NCBI RefSeq assembly: GCF_017347585.1
Contig: NZ_AP024480.1
Coordinates: 2,271,501 to 2,335,500 of the forward strand
Direction: 5' to 3'
DNA: 64,000 bases
Source of the DNA: Caldicellulosiruptor diazotrophicus
GTDB taxonomy: Bacteria > Bacillota > Thermoanaerobacteria > Caldicellulosiruptorales > Caldicellulosiruptoraceae
Both the position numbers and the translations under genes were made by a program. Within the stretch, counting starts at the first letter, position 1, and each line of letters opens with the position of its first letter. Below, in pieces: positions 35,550-44,127 of this stretch. The notes under the pieces are model-generated. The model worked only from the letters and a program-made list of their open reading frames with translations, was not told the origin of the DNA and did no database searches.

Positions 35550-36827
35550 ATGCCACCAAAAAATGACCAAAATGGCACTGTGAAAAAAGGAGTTATGAGT
35601 CTTACATATGTCGCCTTAGCTTTTATTATTGTACTTGACATCATACTTGGTATTATAATGCCAACAGCTAAATTAAAACTCTATTCTATCTTAGTTGCAA
35701 CAGTTACATTTTTACTGACACTTGCGCTGACTGCTTTTATGATTCGCTATGAGATGAACAAAATGATTTCCAAGCTTGAAGATGTCCTTGAAAAAATCAA
35801 AAACGGTGATTACAGCAGGCTAATCTCATCAAAAGAGTTCGGCAACATCCAGAGAGTAGCATCGAGTGTAAACATTGTTCTTTCGGATATAAAAACACTG
35901 ATTGAGAGCTTTTTTGACCTGTCAAACGCAATCGTCGGTGCATCTAAAAAGGTTACAAAGACATCTGAAGAAGCAGCTGCTGCAATTGAAGAGATAGCAA
36001 AGACAGTTGAAGAGATTGCAAAAGGTGCATCCCAGCAAGCTGAAGAAGCACAGCACGGTGTTTTGCTTGTAAATAACCTCTCTGAACAGATAAATGCTGT
36101 ATCTGAAAGCTATAATGGTGTGATTGATGAAGCAAATAAGATTGATATTCTCAACAAAGAGGGAATTGAAAAGATGAGTGCCCTTAGAGAAAAGAGCGAA
36201 ATTGCAGTGTCAACAGCTGAAAAAGTAATTGACACTATCATCTCTTTTATAGAGAGAATCAAAAATATCTCCAACTTTGTTGAGGTTATCAACACAATTG
36301 CTGAACAAACAAACCTTTTAGCTTTGAATGCTGCAATTGAGGCAGCAAGGGCAGGTGAGGCAGGAAGAGGATTTGCAGTTGTTGCGGATGAGGTCAGAAA
36401 ACTTGCTGACCAGAGCAAAAAGGCAGCAGATGAGATAAATTCTATTGTCGATGTTATTTTGGGTGAGACAGAAAATACAATTAAGATAATAGATGAAATA
36501 AAAGAAGCAGCGTTGGGTCAGAAAGATGCAGTTGTGGAATCGCAGCAGTCTTTTGCCAAAATTTCTGATGAGATAAATGCAATTGTAGAAAAGACATATG
36601 TTGTAAAAGAAGCGCTAAGCAGAATGGAAGAAGCAAGAAATGCGGTTATTCGGGCAATAGAGAGTATATCTTCTGTATCTGAAGAGACAGCTGCAGCATC
36701 TGAGGAGGTTGCAGCAACTGTTGAAAATCAGTTAAACTCAATAAACGAAATGAAATACTCTGCACAGTCGCTTCAAAAGCTTGTTGATGAGCTCGAAAAG
36801 AGGCTTAAGAAGTATAAGATACGATAA
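35550..36827 (+). CDS. Methyl-accepting chemotaxis-type protein without ligand domain
   Basis: This is a 425-aa protein. Two transmembrane helices (about 16-37 and 43-66) are joined by a loop of only a few residues, so there is no extracytoplasmic sensing domain. A HAMP-like stretch (about 67-120) leads into a long coiled coil with the hairpin tip [24 protein letters not shown], the CheA/CheW contact. It could sense membrane state or signal from the cytoplasmic side. Flanking genes are not chemotaxis genes. The start is ATG 35550 after AAAGGAG. Confidence 0.9.
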
Positions 36828-36881: not shown

Positions 36882-37250
36882 CTATTTTTGTGTATACTCT
36901 TTAGTATCAGACAGCCGGGAATGAATACAATAAACGTTATCTAATAGGAGATTAACAAGATTTTCAAGCTTTTCTATTTTACAATCAAGTTCTTTTTGAA
37001 GTTCTTTATGCTGTTTTTCGTTTCTCCATTTCAGAAGTTCTTGATGAACTCTTCCCAGAATCTCAATTTTTAAAAATGCTTTTTCGTTTATTTTATAGTT
37101 CTCATCCAACAAAAGCTTTAAATTTTCTATACTCGAACATAAAGAAAACATTTGCTGGTTAAGCGCCCAAACAACTTGTGTTAGATTTTTAACTTCTTTT
37201 TTTAAATCTTCCATCTCCAAAGCAAATTTATTTTCACTGTTCATTTTCAC
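36882..37250 (-). CDS. Coiled-coil hypothetical protein
   Basis: This is a 122-aa soluble protein, almost entirely predicted helix with leucine-spaced heptads (LKKEVKNLTQVVWALNQQ, then LQKELDCKIEKLENLVNLLL). No family is recognised. It is the last gene of the pstB-phoU operon, 11 bp after the HD gene, and ends at the bidirectional terminator. It may be an oligomerisation or adaptor partner of the preceding enzymes. Confidence 0.6.
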   Translation of the reverse strand: MKMNSENKFALEMEDLKKEVKNLTQVVWALNQQMFSLCSSIENLKLLLDENYKINEKAFLKIEILGRVHQELLKWRNEKQHKELQKELDCKIEKLENLVNLLLDNVYCIHSRLSDTKEYTQK

Positions 37251-37261
37251 ATGCCTCCTTT

Positions 37262-37849
37262 TTAGCTTACCCTTACCTTGTTTTCAATTTCAATCTTTTG
37301 CAACTCAAATAGATACAAAAACAGTTCTCCTTTTTTTTCCACTCGGCGAAGAAGAGTAGGTGTTATTATTCCATCAACAACAATCCTTAAAAAATCATTC
37401 TCAATTTTTATTCCCTTTATTTGTATCTCTTCGCCCGAATAATCAAAGCTGTCTGCAAGTCTTAAAATTGCACTCAATATAAGTGTCAGATTTTTGTCTT
37501 TAGTTTTTAGTTTAAACGTTTTCGACTTAATTTTTTTTCTGTGGTTATAGCACACCAAAGCTAAAATCTTTTTTACTTCTTTTGGATACTCCTTTAAGGC
37601 AAGGTCATTTTTAATTAGGTAATATGAATGTTTGTGATGTTTTTTCTCATTAATAAATGTTCCAATATCATGCAGTATGCAAGCATGTTCCAAAAGCTTT
37701 CTATCAGAATCTGACAAGTTATGATAATTTATAGTGCTGTCAAACAAAAATAGTGCTTGTTCTTTTACAAAATTTGCATGTCGCGGATCATATCCATATT
37801 TTTGAGCAAGTTGAAGCACGTTATGGTCAAACAGTTCTAACTGATTCAT
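37262..37849 (-). CDS. Stand-alone HD-domain phosphohydrolase, relative of the Ppx/GppA C-terminal domain
   Basis: This is a 195-aa protein. The metal-binding HD motif is CILHDIGTFINEKKHHKHSYYLI. It parallels LLHDIGTYLSFYQHAQHSAYVI in the C-terminal half of the Ppx/GppA protein encoded in the same operon, and a later DSFDYSGE replaces the EILDKRENG segment. It therefore looks like a detached paralogue of that HD domain. Candidate substrates are nucleotides or (p)ppGpp-like molecules, but this is inference. The start ATG overlaps the upstream kinase-like gene by 23 bases with GAGGAGG inside that gene. Confidence 0.78.
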   Translation of the reverse strand: MNQLELFDHNVLQLAQKYGYDPRHANFVKEQALFLFDSTINYHNLSDSDRKLLEHACILHDIGTFINEKKHHKHSYYLIKNDLALKEYPKEVKKILALVCYNHRKKIKSKTFKLKTKDKNLTLILSAILRLADSFDYSGEEIQIKGIKIENDFLRIVVDGIITPTLLRRVEKKGELFLYLFELQKIEIENKVRVS

Positions 37850-38549
37850 TTTTATCCTCCTCTTGTAGTATTTTTAATATTTCTTCCCTAATTCTCTTTT
37901 GTATTATGCCTACGCCCTGATTACCATCAACGACTACAAAATTGTATTCCTTTGCCATTTCCTCATATTCTTTTTTGAGCAAAAAATGATATTTTTTAAA
38001 ACTTTCGAACATGTCAGCCGAAAGCTGAATATCCATACCAGATTCCCAGTAATCAAGATGTCCATATTTCTGAAATGTTCTGGTAAGTAAAATATCAATG
38101 CTAACATCAAGATATATTATTAGGTCAGGAACTACAGCAAAACCTAAAAGTTTTTTAAGCCATTCTTTATCTGCTCCTCTGACAATATCACGAGCCATAA
38201 GAGTAAAGATATACCTATCCGCAAGGACAATAAAACCTGCAGAGAGAGCAGGGATTATTTGATTTTCAAGCTGGTCAGCAAAATCACAACAGTAAAGAAG
38301 ACTTAAAGTAGTCTTTCCAAGTATATTGCCCTTTTTGGCTCTTTGTATAACATCACCTACTAGTCTAGATCTTTTTAATCCAGTATTTAAAACTGCATAA
38401 CCGCTTGCTTCAAGCCATTCTTTCAAAAGCTCTATCTGTGTTGACCTTCCAGAACAATCCGGTCCTTCTATTACAACCAACTTTCCACGCTTTTGTAATA
38501 ATTCGAAATTGGGAAGTCCAAATCCATAAAATTTCATTTCAGTTGCCAT
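37827..38549 (-). CDS. Thymidylate-kinase-like P-loop NTPase, copy 2
   Basis: This is a 240-aa protein. Walker A is EGPDCSGRSTQ (Arg replaces the usual Lys), and the second motif is LADRYIFTLMARDIVRG. It has the thymidylate kinase fold, but the nucleobase-pocket stretch that in true dTMP kinases reads DRY..S..AYQG is replaced by ARDIVRG. It is a diverged paralogue of the adjacent copy 1. The genes overlap by 16 bases. The GKS-to-GRS change in the P-loop suggests weakened or altered phosphotransfer. A heterodimer with copy 1 is plausible. See finding. Confidence 0.78.
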   Translation of the reverse strand: MATEMKFYGFGLPNFELLQKRGKLVVIEGPDCSGRSTQIELLKEWLEASGYAVLNTGLKRSRLVGDVIQRAKKGNILGKTTLSLLYCCDFADQLENQIIPALSAGFIVLADRYIFTLMARDIVRGADKEWLKKLLGFAVVPDLIIYLDVSIDILLTRTFQKYGHLDYWESGMDIQLSADMFESFKKYHFLLKKEYEEMAKEYNFVVVDGNQGVGIIQKRIREEILKILQEEDKNESVRTV

Positions 38550-39283
38550 TTAGCTTCACCTTCCTTATTATAAGTACTCAATATCCACTTTTGAGTAGGT
38601 GGTTTGTAATCATGAAGATATCTTTGAACAATCTCTCTGACCATCTTTTGCTGTTGTCTTATAGAAAGAGTCCCATCAATTGTAATGAACCCTTCCTGTT
38701 CAGCAAGCATGTCGTACATCTGAATAATCTTTGACTGATAAAGTTTAAAACTTTCTGTAGTATCAGTACTCAAACCCAAATCCATCCCTGCTTCATAGTA
38801 CTTTATTTGTGTTCGACCCATTAAAATCCTGTCAATTGCTATATCTACAGGCACTTTGAAATAAAATGTTACAGTTGGCCTCACTGCAAAATCATATACT
38901 GTCTTGACCCAGTCAGGATTGCAGCCTCTTGCGATGTCCCGTGCATAAGCTGTGTAGATATATCTGTCGCACAATACTATATATCCTGCTCGCAAATGAG
39001 GAAGTATAAGCCTTTCATACCTATCAGCAAAATCACAAGCATGCAAAAGAGAAAAAGTAGTCGGAGTTAATAGATTTTTCTTTTTTGCCTTTTTTGTAGC
39101 ATTCTTTACTAAATCAGATGAATTCCATTCAGTAAAAAATACTGTATATCCCAAAAATTCTAACCACTTTTTTAAAAGATGAACTTGAGTAGATTTACCA
39201 GAACCGTCACATCCCTCTACAACAAATAATCTTCCTTCATATGTTTTGGTAAGTCCCAAACCTCTTATTTCTTTAAACATCAT
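38534..39283 (-). CDS. Thymidylate-kinase-like P-loop NTPase, copy 1
   Basis: This is a 249-aa protein with a perfect Walker A (EGCDGSGKSTQ) and the LCDRYIYTAYARDIARGC motif. The overall fold matches thymidylate kinase, but the TMP-contacting YQG is replaced by RDIARG, as in copy 2, so the acceptor may not be dTMP. The two copies align over their length, with shared LLHACDFADRYE against LLYCCDFADQLE and YYEAGMDLGLS against YWESGMDIQLS. It lies 19 bp after the Ppx/GppA gene, so its substrate may relate to polyphosphate or nucleotides. Confidence 0.8.
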   Translation of the reverse strand: MMFKEIRGLGLTKTYEGRLFVVEGCDGSGKSTQVHLLKKWLEFLGYTVFFTEWNSSDLVKNATKKAKKKNLLTPTTFSLLHACDFADRYERLILPHLRAGYIVLCDRYIYTAYARDIARGCNPDWVKTVYDFAVRPTVTFYFKVPVDIAIDRILMGRTQIKYYEAGMDLGLSTDTTESFKLYQSKIIQMYDMLAEQEGFITIDGTLSIRQQQKMVREIVQRYLHDYKPPTQKWILSTYNKEGEAKWQLK

Positions 39284-39302
39284 TGGAATATTTCATCTCC
39301 TT

Positions 39303-40829
39303 TTACATATTGTTTTTTATAATAAGCTGTTTGCCAAATATCTTCTCAAATTGAGGTTTTAATCTTTCTGCGAGAGATATTTCAATTCCAAGATTCGACT
39401 TTGAATATATTCTTAAAACTACTTTTTCGCATTCTTCACTACATCTTATAGAGGTAACAAGTCCATTTTCTCTTTTATCAAGTATCTCAGCCAGTTTTAA
39501 TATAAATGCAAGTGGCTTTATCTTTTTTATCTTGTCATGACTTAATAAATTAATATACCTTGTCAAAAAAGGTGCTTTTGATTTTGAATTTTCATGAAAA
39601 GATATAATCTCTGCAGTAAGTATAATATCTTGATGTGAAATTCCAAATAACGGGAGATTCAAAATTACATAAGCTGAATGCTGAGCATGTTGATAAAAAC
39701 TTAGATAAGTTCCTATATCATGAAGCAAAGCAGCCGTTTTTAAAATAATTCTATCTTCTTTGGTAAAATAATTCGGAAAAATAGGTAATAGCTGGTCAAA
39801 TAACATAGTAGCATATCTGCACACATTTTTGGCATGTTTTTTGCTAAAGCTGAAGAAATTCAAATAATTATTTATGCTATACTCTAATAGTATTTCAGAG
39901 GAAAAAGCCGTTGAATTTGCATCTTTGAATAAGCTTTCAAACAATATACCCTCGCGAAGTCCGTATGAACTGACATAAATTTGCTGAGCTTTTATTCTTT
40001 CAATCAGCACTTTCAATATCAAAAAAGCTCCTAAAATAATATCAGACCTTTTCTCAGAAAGTCCTGGAATACTTTTTCGTTTTTCAACTTCTAAACTCTG
40101 AAGCATGTTATAAACCTCAATAAATTCTTGATATGAAATTGCAAAATTGTGTAAGGTAGTAATAGGATAACCTTTTTTGTGTTGAATAATTCTTCCGAGA
40201 TTCCTTATACTTCCACCAATTCCTATCAGGTTTACATTATTTAATTCTTCCATCCATCTATATTTTTCAAAAATCAACTTTACTTCGCTTTCTATTTCAT
40301 TCAATGATAAAGAAGACTCCATAATCATTTTTGAACAATTTACAGCACCGAGCCTGATTGAACCCCAGTACTTTAAGTTTTTATCTTTGAAATAAACAAA
40401 CTCTGTACTTCCACCGCCAATGTCAACCAAAAGTCCATCTTGATAGTTTAAAGAACATTTTATTGCCCACAGGTTATAGTTTGCCTCTTCAAATTCTGAA
40501 AGTACTTTAACTTCTAATTCTGTAGATTTTTTTATATTCTCCAAAACTTCCATCTTATTGCTTGCATCTCTAATAGCAGCGGTAGCAACTACCAATATAT
40601 CCTGTTTTGCAACTCCATTCATCTTGCAAAGCGCTTTAAAAAAATTGAGTACTTCAACTAAAAGCGAAATCTTATAAGAAGGTATCTGGTTGTTTTCTCC
40701 ATATTCTGCAAGTCTTACTACTATGCTTTCATCTTCGATTAATCTAAAAAATATTCCTTTATCAACCTCATACACTACAACCCTTACGGTATTCGAACCG
40801 ATATCGATTATTCCTATTCTTCTTTTCAT
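39303..40829 (-). CDS. Ppx/GppA family exopolyphosphatase / pppGpp phosphatase with HD domain
   Basis: This is a 508-aa protein. The N-terminal actin-like phosphatase has IGIIDIGSNTVRVVVYEV, LLVDIGGGSTEFVYF and an intermediate IGIGGSIRNLG. The C-terminal HD domain has LKTAALLHDIGTYLSFYQHAQHSAYV. This is the Ppx2/GppA layout, which hydrolyses polyphosphate or converts pppGpp to ppGpp. Its ATG overlaps the stop of the upstream EAL-like/GGDDF gene by four bases. Which substrate it prefers cannot be seen; the genomic link to PhoU and PstB favours a phosphate role. Confidence 0.9.
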   Translation of the reverse strand: MKRRIGIIDIGSNTVRVVVYEVDKGIFFRLIEDESIVVRLAEYGENNQIPSYKISLLVEVLNFFKALCKMNGVAKQDILVVATAAIRDASNKMEVLENIKKSTELEVKVLSEFEEANYNLWAIKCSLNYQDGLLVDIGGGSTEFVYFKDKNLKYWGSIRLGAVNCSKMIMESSLSLNEIESEVKLIFEKYRWMEELNNVNLIGIGGSIRNLGRIIQHKKGYPITTLHNFAISYQEFIEVYNMLQSLEVEKRKSIPGLSEKRSDIILGAFLILKVLIERIKAQQIYVSSYGLREGILFESLFKDANSTAFSSEILLEYSINNYLNFFSFSKKHAKNVCRYATMLFDQLLPIFPNYFTKEDRIILKTAALLHDIGTYLSFYQHAQHSAYVILNLPLFGISHQDIILTAEIISFHENSKSKAPFLTRYINLLSHDKIKKIKPLAFILKLAEILDKRENGLVTSIRCSEECEKVVLRIYSKSNLGIEISLAERLKPQFEKIFGKQLIIKNNM

Positions 40830-42601
40830 GTTTCACCTTCCCATATTATATAGCAGCTGGTATTCTTCTGTTTGCAAAATTTTTTAACATCCGAAAGACA
40901 ATTTGAAATTTCTTCAACGTTTGAAAACATTCCAGGTACAACTTTAACACAAGCCACTGATAAACTCATAAGCCCAAACTTTTCCACCTCTCCTTTTCTG
41001 TTTTTAGATTCTATATAGCCCCTACTAAGGTCATAGTTGTCGTAAAAATATGGAATTGAAGAATCAAATTCTTCAATTATTTTTTTAGCAATTTTCTCAA
41101 CTTCTGCTTTGTCATAAACAATTACAATAAAATCGTCACCGCCAACATGCCCAACAAAAATTTTTTCTTGCCAGTCCATTTGTATTTGTTTTAATATAGA
41201 TGCAAGTTGTAATATAACCTTATCACCTTTTTCAAATCCATAATAGTCGTTGAATGGCTTAAAATTATCAATATCAACATAAAAGACATAAAATTCTTTC
41301 TCATTTTCTAAGGCGTTACTTATTTCTTTCTCAATCAATAAATTACCTGGTAAGTTGGTAAGCGGATTTAAATGCTTTGCAAAACTTATTTCAAGCTGTG
41401 TCGACTTTTTCAACAAATCTTTTATTGTAACCACACCTTCATACATCCCATTTTTGGTTACAATTATGTAATCATGAATATCCTCATTCTCCCTTGCAGA
41501 AAGTTCTCTGACTACATCGTCTAATGAAGCATTGTATTCTACGACCAATGGGTTTGAATCCATCAAAAGTGCCACAGGTCTTTTTGAGTACACTGCAAAG
41601 CCATACATCGTAGATAAATTAAGTAAAAATTTTTCCCTTTTTATAAGTCCTTTAACTTTTCCATCTTTTGTTACAACAAGCCCATGTAGTTTTGGATTTT
41701 TTTCTAAAATCTCAAGAGCTTTCTCACACGATACATTGGGTTCAACATAAGGTATCTTTATACAAAGCGTTCCTATGCAAATTTTTGAAGTTTTAAAAAG
41801 ATAATATCTCCTTTGGTTTTCTATAGTTTCCAATAAAAGCTCTTTTATATCATTAGAGACCGTGTGTTTTAGTTCTATATTAGGAGGCATTATAAAATAT
41901 CCTTGCAAATATTCAATCCCAATTTCCAGTAAACTTAGTAGTTCTTCTATCTTTTCAATCATTGTAGCGATAACTTTTATTTGACTTTCGTCACAGAATT
42001 CTATAAAAGAGTGCAAGTATTTACTTTTTATAGAATCCATGGCTATATCGCGATATACCTCCCTACCAATTTTGACATAGGTGGGTTTTGAGATAGATAT
42101 GAAATCAAGAAAAAAATAAAGTGAGCCTATATTTTCTGCAGAAAATGTAAATCCTTGTTTTTTAAGGACTTTTATTGAATAGTGCAAATCATTAACAGAC
42201 AAATTCTCACATGATTTTATACTTATTTCAAATACAATATTTTTTGTTATCATAGGATTGGTAGAAAGAATACTTGCTATAAATGTAGTAAAATCATTAT
42301 TCATAAGAGATATTGGTGAGATATTTACAAAAAATTTTCTATTTTCTATATTATTTTTATTATTGATTAAAACATCCACAATCTTTTTAAAAATAATTTT
42401 GTCAATCTTAATAATAAGTTCATTTTCTTTCATGATATCAAACAAAAGTTTTAAATCAATATAACCAGTTTCATATGGGTTTATAAGAAACACTTCCCAG
42501 CCAATTACCTGAGCAGATGTTGCAAACACAACTGGTTGAAATGAAAGGTCAATATTTTGTCTTTCAATTAAAAAGTTTAAATAATCAAGTTTACTTGACA
42601 T
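40826..42601 (-). CDS. EAL-like/CBS/GGDEF-type protein with degenerate EAL and GGDDF motif
   Basis: This is a 591-aa protein. The N-terminal 250 residues follow the EAL fold (QPVVFATSAQVIGWEVFLI, FVNISPISL, LQGYFIMPP). The motif is EVF, and the catalytic DDFG and KID-type positions read SAENIG and YVKIGRE, so phosphodiesterase activity is unlikely. Two CBS repeats cover about 285-400. The C-terminal GGDEF domain has LTNLPGNLLIEKEI, YVDIDNFKPFNDYYGFEKGD and the signature GHVGGDDF, with Asp in place of Glu, which may still permit cyclase activity. It is likely to bind c-di-GMP or to make it under CBS control. The start is ATG 42601, overlapping phoU by 11 bases and the Ppx gene by four. Confidence 0.88.
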   Translation of the reverse strand: MSSKLDYLNFLIERQNIDLSFQPVVFATSAQVIGWEVFLINPYETGYIDLKLLFDIMKENELIIKIDKIIFKKIVDVLINNKNNIENRKFFVNISPISLMNNDFTTFIASILSTNPMITKNIVFEISIKSCENLSVNDLHYSIKVLKKQGFTFSAENIGSLYFFLDFISISKPTYVKIGREVYRDIAMDSIKSKYLHSFIEFCDESQIKVIATMIEKIEELLSLLEIGIEYLQGYFIMPPNIELKHTVSNDIKELLLETIENQRRYYLFKTSKICIGTLCIKIPYVEPNVSCEKALEILEKNPKLHGLVVTKDGKVKGLIKREKFLLNLSTMYGFAVYSKRPVALLMDSNPLVVEYNASLDDVVRELSARENEDIHDYIIVTKNGMYEGVVTIKDLLKKSTQLEISFAKHLNPLTNLPGNLLIEKEISNALENEKEFYVFYVDIDNFKPFNDYYGFEKGDKVILQLASILKQIQMDWQEKIFVGHVGGDDFIVIVYDKAEVEKIAKKIIEEFDSSIPYFYDNYDLSRGYIESKNRKGEVEKFGLMSLSVACVKVVPGMFSNVEEISNCLSDVKKFCKQKNTSCYIIWEGET

Positions 42602-43334
42602 CTTCTTCTTCACCATTTTGTTTATTTTTTTCTCTTTTATCCATAATTATGTTATTTGTTTCAGTAGCTGCATCATTAAATTCCCACTCATGTTTTAGAA
42701 GCCCTGTAAGTTTATATACAATCCACTCTGCTATATTCGTTGCGTGGTCAGCTATTCTTTCAATATATTTAACAATTAATATAAGCAAAATACATTGAGA
42801 TGTGAACTCTGGCTTTTCCTTAATTGTCTTTTCTATATTTTCAAGAAGAAACCTAAACATCTGGTCAACTTTACAATCCATAGCTTTTACTTTTTTGGCC
42901 ATTTCTATATCAGAAAGCATATACGCTTCCATTACATCTTTAAACATCATTCTTGCAAGTTCTGACATATAGGGTATTTCATTCCCAATTTCAACGAGTT
43001 GTTGACCTTCAAGCTTTAACACAAGTTTAGAAATATCAGAAGCATGGTCTGCTATTCTTTCTATATCATTTGCTATTCTTGTAGCAGCTACTAAAAGTCT
43101 TAAATCGCTTGCCATAGGCTGCTGAGTTGCTATAACAATAGTACTCTTTTTCTCTAATTCCTCTATCATATTGTCTATGTCAGTATCGTTTTTGATAACT
43201 TCAGTGGCTAAACTTACATCCTGTTTTATAAAAGCCTCCATAGCTTTTTCAATTGCTTCAAGTGCAAGACTTGCAATTTTGTAAACTTCAAAGTTTATTT
43301 CTTTAAGCTCTCTTAAAAAAGTCGAACGTATCAT
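42591..43334 (-). CDS. phoU: PhoU phosphate-signalling regulator
   Basis: This is a 247-aa protein with two PhoU helical repeats. Each has the metal-binding run: TRIANDIERIADHASDISKL and VKYIERIADHATNIAEWIVYKLTG. The C-terminal tail (about 215-247) is charged and longer than usual. PhoU links the Pst transporter state to phosphate signalling and prevents excessive phosphate uptake. It follows pstB by 37 bp and overlaps the next gene. Confidence 0.95.
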   Translation of the reverse strand: MIRSTFLRELKEINFEVYKIASLALEAIEKAMEAFIKQDVSLATEVIKNDTDIDNMIEELEKKSTIVIATQQPMASDLRLLVAATRIANDIERIADHASDISKLVLKLEGQQLVEIGNEIPYMSELARMMFKDVMEAYMLSDIEMAKKVKAMDCKVDQMFRFLLENIEKTIKEKPEFTSQCILLILIVKYIERIADHATNIAEWIVYKLTGLLKHEWEFNDAATETNNIIMDKREKNKQNGEEEDVK

Positions 43335-43371
43335 TTTTACCTACCTCGTTCTCAAAGTTATTTTTTGGGCA

Positions 43372-44127
43372 TTAGCCAAACCTTCCAGATATGTAATCAT
43401 CTGTTCTTTTGTCTTTGGGTGCATGGAAGATATCTATTGTTTTACCAAACTCAATAAGCTCACCATTTAAGAAAAAACCTGTCCAGTCAGAAATTCTTGC
43501 TGCCTGTTGCATATTGTGAGTAACTATTACTATAGTGTAATACTCTTTCAGTTCTATCAGAAGTTCTTCGATACGAAGGGTGGAAAGGGGGTCAAGTGCT
43601 GAAGTTGGCTCATCTAAGAGAAGAATTTGTGGTTCTACTGCCAGAGCCCGCGCAATACAAAGTCTTTGTTGTTGTCCACCAGAAAGCGAAAAAGCACTTT
43701 TTGAAAGCCTATCTTTTACCTCTTGCCAAAGTCCTGCCCTTATAAGACATCTTTCGACAATTTCATCCAAATTTTTCTTATCTTTTACTCCATGAATCCT
43801 TGGACCATAAGCAACATTTTCGTATATACTCATAGGAAAAGGATTTGGATGTTGAAAAATCATTCCCACTTTTTTGCGAAGTTCTATAAGGTTTATACTA
43901 TCTGCATAAATGTCAGTACCATCAATAAATACTTTTCCCCAAATCTTTACTCCTTCTATTAAGTCATTCATTCTGTTCAAGGTCCTTAAAAAAGTAGACT
44001 TGCCACATCCAGATGGTCCTATTAAAGCTGTGATTGCTTTTTCTGGAATTGAAATATTTACATTTTTGAGAGCTTGTTCATTTCCATAAAAAAGGTTTAA
44101 ATCAATGGTCTCTATTTTTGACTCCAT
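43372..44127 (-). CDS. pstB: Phosphate ABC transporter ATP-binding protein
   Basis: This is a 251-aa ATPase of the phosphate importer. Walker A is [19 protein letters not shown], the Q-loop is [21 protein letters not shown] (typical PstB), the signature is [16 protein letters not shown], Walker [13 protein letters not shown], and the H-loop IVTHNMQQA. The NRMNDL and PFPMSIY sequences distinguish PstB from other ATPases. The genes pstS, pstC and pstA are not upstream: the next gene upstream is an unrelated exporter. It begins the phosphate operon. Confidence 0.95.

Follow-up and report, generated by a model that had tools for sequence, protein, structure and literature searches.

The eight-gene operon

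The window analyzed here is a stretch of 64,000 nucleotides from the genome of Caldicellulosiruptor diazotrophicus. Eight open reading frames (ORFs) follow each other in the minus strand of its segment 36882-44127 (Table 1). The genes and domain assignments given in an initial annotation of the segment were confirmed by ORF analysis and profile matches. Two adjacent genes code for paralogous proteins with a thymidylate kinase (TMK) fold, designated TMKa and TMKb. This pair, for which the initial annotation had offered no explanation, is the most informative part of the operon.

Table 1. Genes of the operon in the order of their transcription, with window coordinates and identifying features.
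Gene product	Position	Strand	Evidence and remarks
PstB, phosphate ABC transporter ATP-binding protein	43372..44127	-	operon gene 1; TIGR00972 409.8 bits (cut-off 343.2)
PhoU	42591..43334	-	TIGR02135 193.9 bits (cut-off 130.25); PF01895 twice
EAL-CBS-CBS-GGDDF protein	40826..42616	-	Pfam EAL, CBS, GGDEF
Ppx/GppA phosphatase with C-terminal HD-type domain III	39303..40829	-	PF02541 E=6.7e-48; PF21447 E=9.1e-22
TMKa, thymidylate-kinase-fold protein, P-loop GCDGSGKST intact	38534..39283	-	domain match, motifs, predicted fold
TMKb, TMKa paralogue, P-loop GPDCSGRST with Lys replaced	37827..38549	-	domain match, motifs, predicted fold
Solo HD protein, a stand-alone Ppx-GppA domain III	37262..37849	-	PF21447 E=1.5e-24
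122-amino-acid coiled-coil-like protein	36882..37250	-	last gene; separated from the HD gene by 11 bp

Intergenic gaps measure 11, 19 and 37 bp, and the overlaps range from 4 to 26 bp depending on the start codon chosen. Promoter-like sites are found across the operon at chance level, with no internal promoter signal above it, and terminator-like sites barely exceed chance (5 versus 3.2 +/- 1.9 in the operon stretch). The initial proposal of a single transcription unit is plausible. The Ppx/GppA gene has both PF02541 and domain III, the combination by which this family was recognized, and is the sole Ppx/GppA match of its genome. In the solo HD protein the HD motif is intact (HDIG at residue 60). 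The EAL domain is degenerate, as initially described. Substitutions have removed the customary second Glu as well as the DD pair, the KID Asp and the AEG Glu (the motifs read FEISI, AENIG, VKIG and VIATM), so that the metal ligands of an active cyclic di-GMP (c-di-GMP) phosphodiesterase are missing. The GGDEF motif of the same protein is GGDDF, compared to GG(D/E)EF in active diguanylate cyclases. No Pfam or NCBIfam match over cut-off was obtained for the 122-amino-acid protein.

The eight genes, their order and both flanks are common to three of the 12 genomes of the genus (the window and two congeneric genomes). Protein identity between the window operon and the two other copies is 82-98%; pstB is also kept in them, and their 122-amino-acid protein is 90-96% identical. 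The remaining nine genomes have neither the TMK-like pair nor any Ppx/GppA, and within the genus Ppx/GppA is found exactly in the three genomes carrying the pair. The operon is real but patchily distributed in the genus, and its full eight-gene set is a lineage-specific assembly. The initial annotation had called for a search of the same gene order in relatives: the core described below is conserved there, while the complete set is confined, in the loci examined, to the genus of the window. A methyl-accepting chemotaxis-type gene (window positions 35550-36827) that points towards the 3' end of the operon accompanies it in both congeneric genomes as well. The C. diazotrophicus genome carries a second pstB-phoU pair (G000:C1:1098521-1101815; L040 8521-11816), sharing 77% and 54% identity with the pair of the window. 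It is divergent to a Pit-type transporter gene with a DUF47-like partner and lies near a PhoB/PhoR-like two-component system, with no pstSCA adjoining.

Sequence features and gene company of TMKa and TMKb

A TMK fold is predicted with high confidence for both proteins (predicted local distance difference test (pLDDT) scores of 91.2 for TMKa and 92.8 for TMKb). Among solved structures, that of ST1543 from Sulfolobus tokodaii is by far the nearest to both (PDB 5h70 and 2plr for TMKa, 2plr for TMKb). A phylogenetic tree separates TMKa, TMKb and canonical TMKs, with ST1543 placed within TMKa on a long branch (Shimodaira-Hasegawa-like approximate likelihood-ratio test (SH-aLRT) support of 100). Three substrate-side features, namely the REPGGT loop, a base-side Arg located 10 residues before a conserved Pro, and SSxVYQG, show little or no variation among 27 canonical TMKs from the class Thermoanaerobacteria and are replaced in all TMKa and TMKb. 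In TMKa they become xWNSS, Phe and TAxARD, respectively, and the replacement residues are themselves 100% conserved across TMKa copies. These positions contact thymidylate in canonical TMKs. The TMKa family is further recognized by its own motifs WNSS, DFADRYE, TAxARDxARG and EAGMD, the latter being a lid motif shared by the pair (ESGMD in TMKb). The P-loop Lys is kept in every TMKa; in TMKb its place is taken by Arg (91%) or Cys (8%). The only TMKa copy with a changed second Gly of the P-loop is found in one of the congeneric genomes (L043 7420-8094; GCDVSGKST). A housekeeping thymidylate kinase role was rejected for the TMK-like genes because the genome has a separate canonical tmk (C1:2024376). 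Judging from the residues replaced, TMKa and TMKb appear to be thymidylate kinases no longer.

TMKa was searched over the class, a sample of the phylum and a collection of ~85,000 species genomes, the latter scanned with two TMKa peptide patterns, which undercounts. Many loci are from metagenome-assembled genomes, and loci within one lineage are not independent. TMKa adjoins TMKb in 61 of 61 loci, distributed over Bacillota, Chloroflexota, Acidobacteriota, Verrucomicrobiota, one Geobacter and Thermoplasmatota. Ppx/GppA lies within 3 kb of the pair in 43 of the 56 loci tallied, and a Ppx-type HD domain, either stand-alone or fused to CHAD, was found near it in 35 of them, every match being within 3 kb. 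The conserved core is TMKa-TMKb-Ppx/GppA, often with the solo Ppx-type HD. Most Bacillota have the order Ppx-TMKa-TMKb-HD, while the high-GC members of the phylum have TMKa-TMKb-HD-Ppx with PPK2 nearby. The order is TMKa-TMKb-Ppx-SixA in Acidobacteriota, with a convergent CHAD-HD fusion gene, CHAD-Ppx-TMKa-TMKb in Chloroflexota, accompanied by PhoU, and PstB-TMKa-TMKb-CYTH in Thermoplasmatota. This variation of gene order around a fixed TMKa-TMKb pair argues for function over mere shared descent.

CHAD is found near the pair in 12 loci; CHAD and SixA together accompany TMKa-TMKb-Ppx in Acidobacteriota and Geobacter. In seven Acidobacteriota loci (L082, L083, L084, L087, L088, L105, L108) the CHAD domain beside TMKa-TMKb-Ppx-SixA is fused to a Ppx-type HD (domain III), the same domain that stands alone in the window operon. 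Outside the genus of the window PstB or PhoU joins the core only in few lineages, and among the loci examined the EAL-CBS-GGDDF and 122-amino-acid genes are beside it only in that genus. Tallies of “PstB” beyond Thermoplasmatota were discarded, as they are generic ABC transporters. The pair lacks these partner genes nearby in three Clostridia and four Verrucomicrobiota; the latter (L085, L089, L103, L106) have no adjoining Ppx and carry PPK1 elsewhere, unlike most other groups. A defense system was also considered and rejected, since the PADLOC matches were weak and limited to generic HD and P-loop hits.

A probable polyphosphate cassette and the alternatives

The phosphate and polyphosphate (polyP) theme of the initial annotation holds, the TMK pair, Ppx/GppA and HD recurring in distant phyla together with PPK2, CHAD, SixA, CYTH, PhoU or PstB. 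The operon core is very probably a polyP cassette. The link to polyP is strong; for the reaction of the pair we infer from its genomic company that phosphate may be moved between ATP and polyP, which is the best explanation overall and one that we hold with middling confidence. The chances that polyP is a substrate of the pair are evenly balanced. Synthesis of polyP by the pair is proposed more tentatively. TMKa and TMKb could then represent, as an equally tentative assignment, a third class of polyphosphate kinase, built of two subunits and with no sequence relation to PPK1 or PPK2 beyond the P-loop. The two proteins would most likely associate as a heteromer; ATP/ADP would be bound by TMKa, while TMKb, with Arg or Cys for the P-loop Lys, would be an altered partner binding or positioning the second substrate. 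Phosphate would be shuttled between ATP and polyP, most likely towards polyP synthesis in cells without PPK1 and PPK2. The polymer would be hydrolyzed by the neighboring Ppx/GppA, and its turnover may be tuned by the solo Ppx-type HD protein. In the genus of the window the cassette is joined to pstB-phoU and to a presumably catalytically dead EAL/GGDDF sensor, through which its expression or activity might follow phosphate status. The association with pstB-phoU makes such phosphate control plausible.

Neither PPK1 (PP_kinase domain PF02503) nor PPK2 (PF03976) was found over cut-off in the C. diazotrophicus genome or in any of 37 genomes of the class, and neither TMKa nor TMKb matches PF03976. 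PPK1 is found in five of 50 genomes carrying the pair. This deficit is strong (p about 5e-15) against the reference-proteome background, in which 5273 of 8282 proteomes have PPK1 (PMC6686919).

A number of observations weigh against this explanation of the pair. The PPK1 deficit is weak relative to evenly drawn Bacillota (1/33 versus 59/399, p=0.04), and all four Verrucomicrobiota with the pair also have PPK1, so that displacement of PPK1 carries little weight as a statistical argument. PPK2 is present in 16 of the 50 genomes. Many genomes of the class with Ppx/GppA have neither PPK nor the pair; with PPK-less Ppx/GppA genomes so common there, the presence of Ppx/GppA alone is no proof of polyP synthesis. 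The three congeneric operons share descent and count as one event. Both proteins exceed the 83.25-bit cut-off of the NCBIfam dTMP kinase family TIGR00041 (TMKb 92.8, TMKa 89.2), and databases label them dTMP kinase for this reason. Their sequence relation to PPK2 stops at the P-loop in profile comparison, and no biochemistry on the pair was found in the open-access literature. Furthermore, ST1543 was reportedly published as a thymidylate kinase in two papers of 2017; dTMP kinase activity measured there would mean that TMKa need not act on polyP. Within the genomes G013-G036, most of the remaining families of the class have a short (about 305-amino-acid) Ppx/GppA without PPK1 or PPK2 and, apart from G015, without the TMK pair.

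The alternative that survives best, unlikely as we consider it, is that TMKa and TMKb act as nucleoside monophosphate kinases whose specificity has changed, with dTMP or another nucleoside monophosphate as acceptor and ATP or polyP as donor. Their adjacency to Ppx would then reflect charging of nucleotides from polyP or nucleotide balance under phosphate stress. Fold, family and NCBIfam score fit such an activity, as does the fact that ST1543, the only solved member of the family, was deposited as a dTMP kinase with ADP bound in one entry. It has to be reconciled, however, with the canonical TMK encoded elsewhere in the genome, with the loss from all TMKa and TMKb of motifs invariant in canonical TMKs, and with neighbors that are polyP genes rather than nucleotide genes.

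It is rather improbable that the pair phosphorylates another target connected with polyP granules or with the sensing of phosphate, be it a phosphohistidine in a protein, an inositol phosphate or some other small molecule. The SixA, CHAD and CYTH neighbors would in that case belong to this other chemistry. SixA and CYTH family proteins can act on non-polyP substrates, and certain lineages do have SixA-like and CYTH proteins near the pair. The partner found most constantly is Ppx/GppA, though, and CHAD is described as a domain that binds polyP specifically (PMC6537752).

The initial annotation had favored a signaling unit in which the state of PhoU is relayed through the GGDDF protein to polyP or nucleotide turnover. 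We regard such a relay, taken as nucleotide signaling by a Ppx/GppA that acts on guanosine pentaphosphate (pppGpp), as very unlikely. PhoU, EAL-CBS-GGDDF and Ppx/GppA are adjacent in the window and in the two congeneric genomes, most genomes of the class with Ppx/GppA lack PPK, and Ppx/GppA proteins can act on pppGpp. Beyond this adjacency nothing was found in favor of the relay itself: in all other lineages examined the core occurs without the GGDDF protein, and the TMK pair, its CHAD and PPK2 company and the CHAD-HD fusion are left unexplained. That ordinary genes without a common function ended up in one transcript by coincidence, to which the restriction of the full set to one genus in the loci examined could point, is hardly credible. 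It is already refuted for the core, which recurs in at least five phyla in several gene orders, but is still conceivable for the 122-amino-acid and EAL-GGDDF proteins.

The pair is thus a testable candidate for an enzyme that makes or uses polyP, most of its hosts being without the usual polyP-making enzyme. Crenarchaeota accumulate polyP without an identified polyphosphate kinase, and many bacteria may make polyP by unknown routes (PMC7831078, PMC6864096). With its solved homologue, ST1543, the conserved polyP-linked kinase pair makes the question of the missing polyP kinase accessible to a few simple assays. Should synthesis by the pair be true, the pair would be the polyP synthase so far missing in Sulfolobales and in PPK-less bacteria, concealed in databases by its dTMP kinase label; a widespread annotation would be corrected and the Ppx operons of PPK-less genomes would find an explanation.

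Comparison with known systems

The operon resembles PPK1-Ppx operons in that a candidate polyP synthase is paired with Ppx in one operon. It differs from them by the absence of PPK1 from its genome and from the class. TMKa has the fold and P-loop of the canonical bacterial dTMP kinase (Tmk) but lacks REPGGT, SSxVYQG and the base-side Arg, and has a constant partner gene, TMKb. PPK2 enzymes are, like the pair, P-loop kinases and belong to the thymidylate kinase superfamily; the PPK2 genes located near the pair in some genomes are separate genes. Descent of the pair from PPK2 was rejected because the profiles align at the P-loop only, where canonical TMKs match likewise. In the published Dali table of Francisella tularensis PPK2 the closest non-PPK2 structures are 4NZY and 2PLR, both of ST1543 (PMC4748334). 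This S. tokodaii protein (PDB 2plr, 4nzy, 4rzx, 5h70) is 50-53% identical to TMKa in structural alignment and, in keeping with its position inside the TMKa clade, carries the WNSS, DFxDRYE, TAYARD and EAG motifs. Full-text searches of the open-access literature found no paper proposing this kinase as a polyP enzyme.

A close precedent is found in Sulfolobales, where polyP accumulates and PPX is present with no known PPK1 or PPK2 (PMC7831078, PMC6864096). A conserved cluster of SixA, PPX, dTMP kinase and CHAD is reported for this order (PMC10892726), and the initial statement that no system with this exact gene set is described requires a qualification to that extent. PPX adjoins a “dTMP kinase” in this cluster, and the Acidobacteriota loci likewise carry SixA and CHAD. 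The window operon has PPX and a TMK-fold kinase without CHAD and SixA. In the text available, the Sulfolobales cluster is described for its CHAD protein and the kinase is not discussed as a polyP enzyme. That kinase may be of the TMKa type, with or without a TMKb partner; ST1543 shows that a Sulfolobus does have a protein of the TMKa type.

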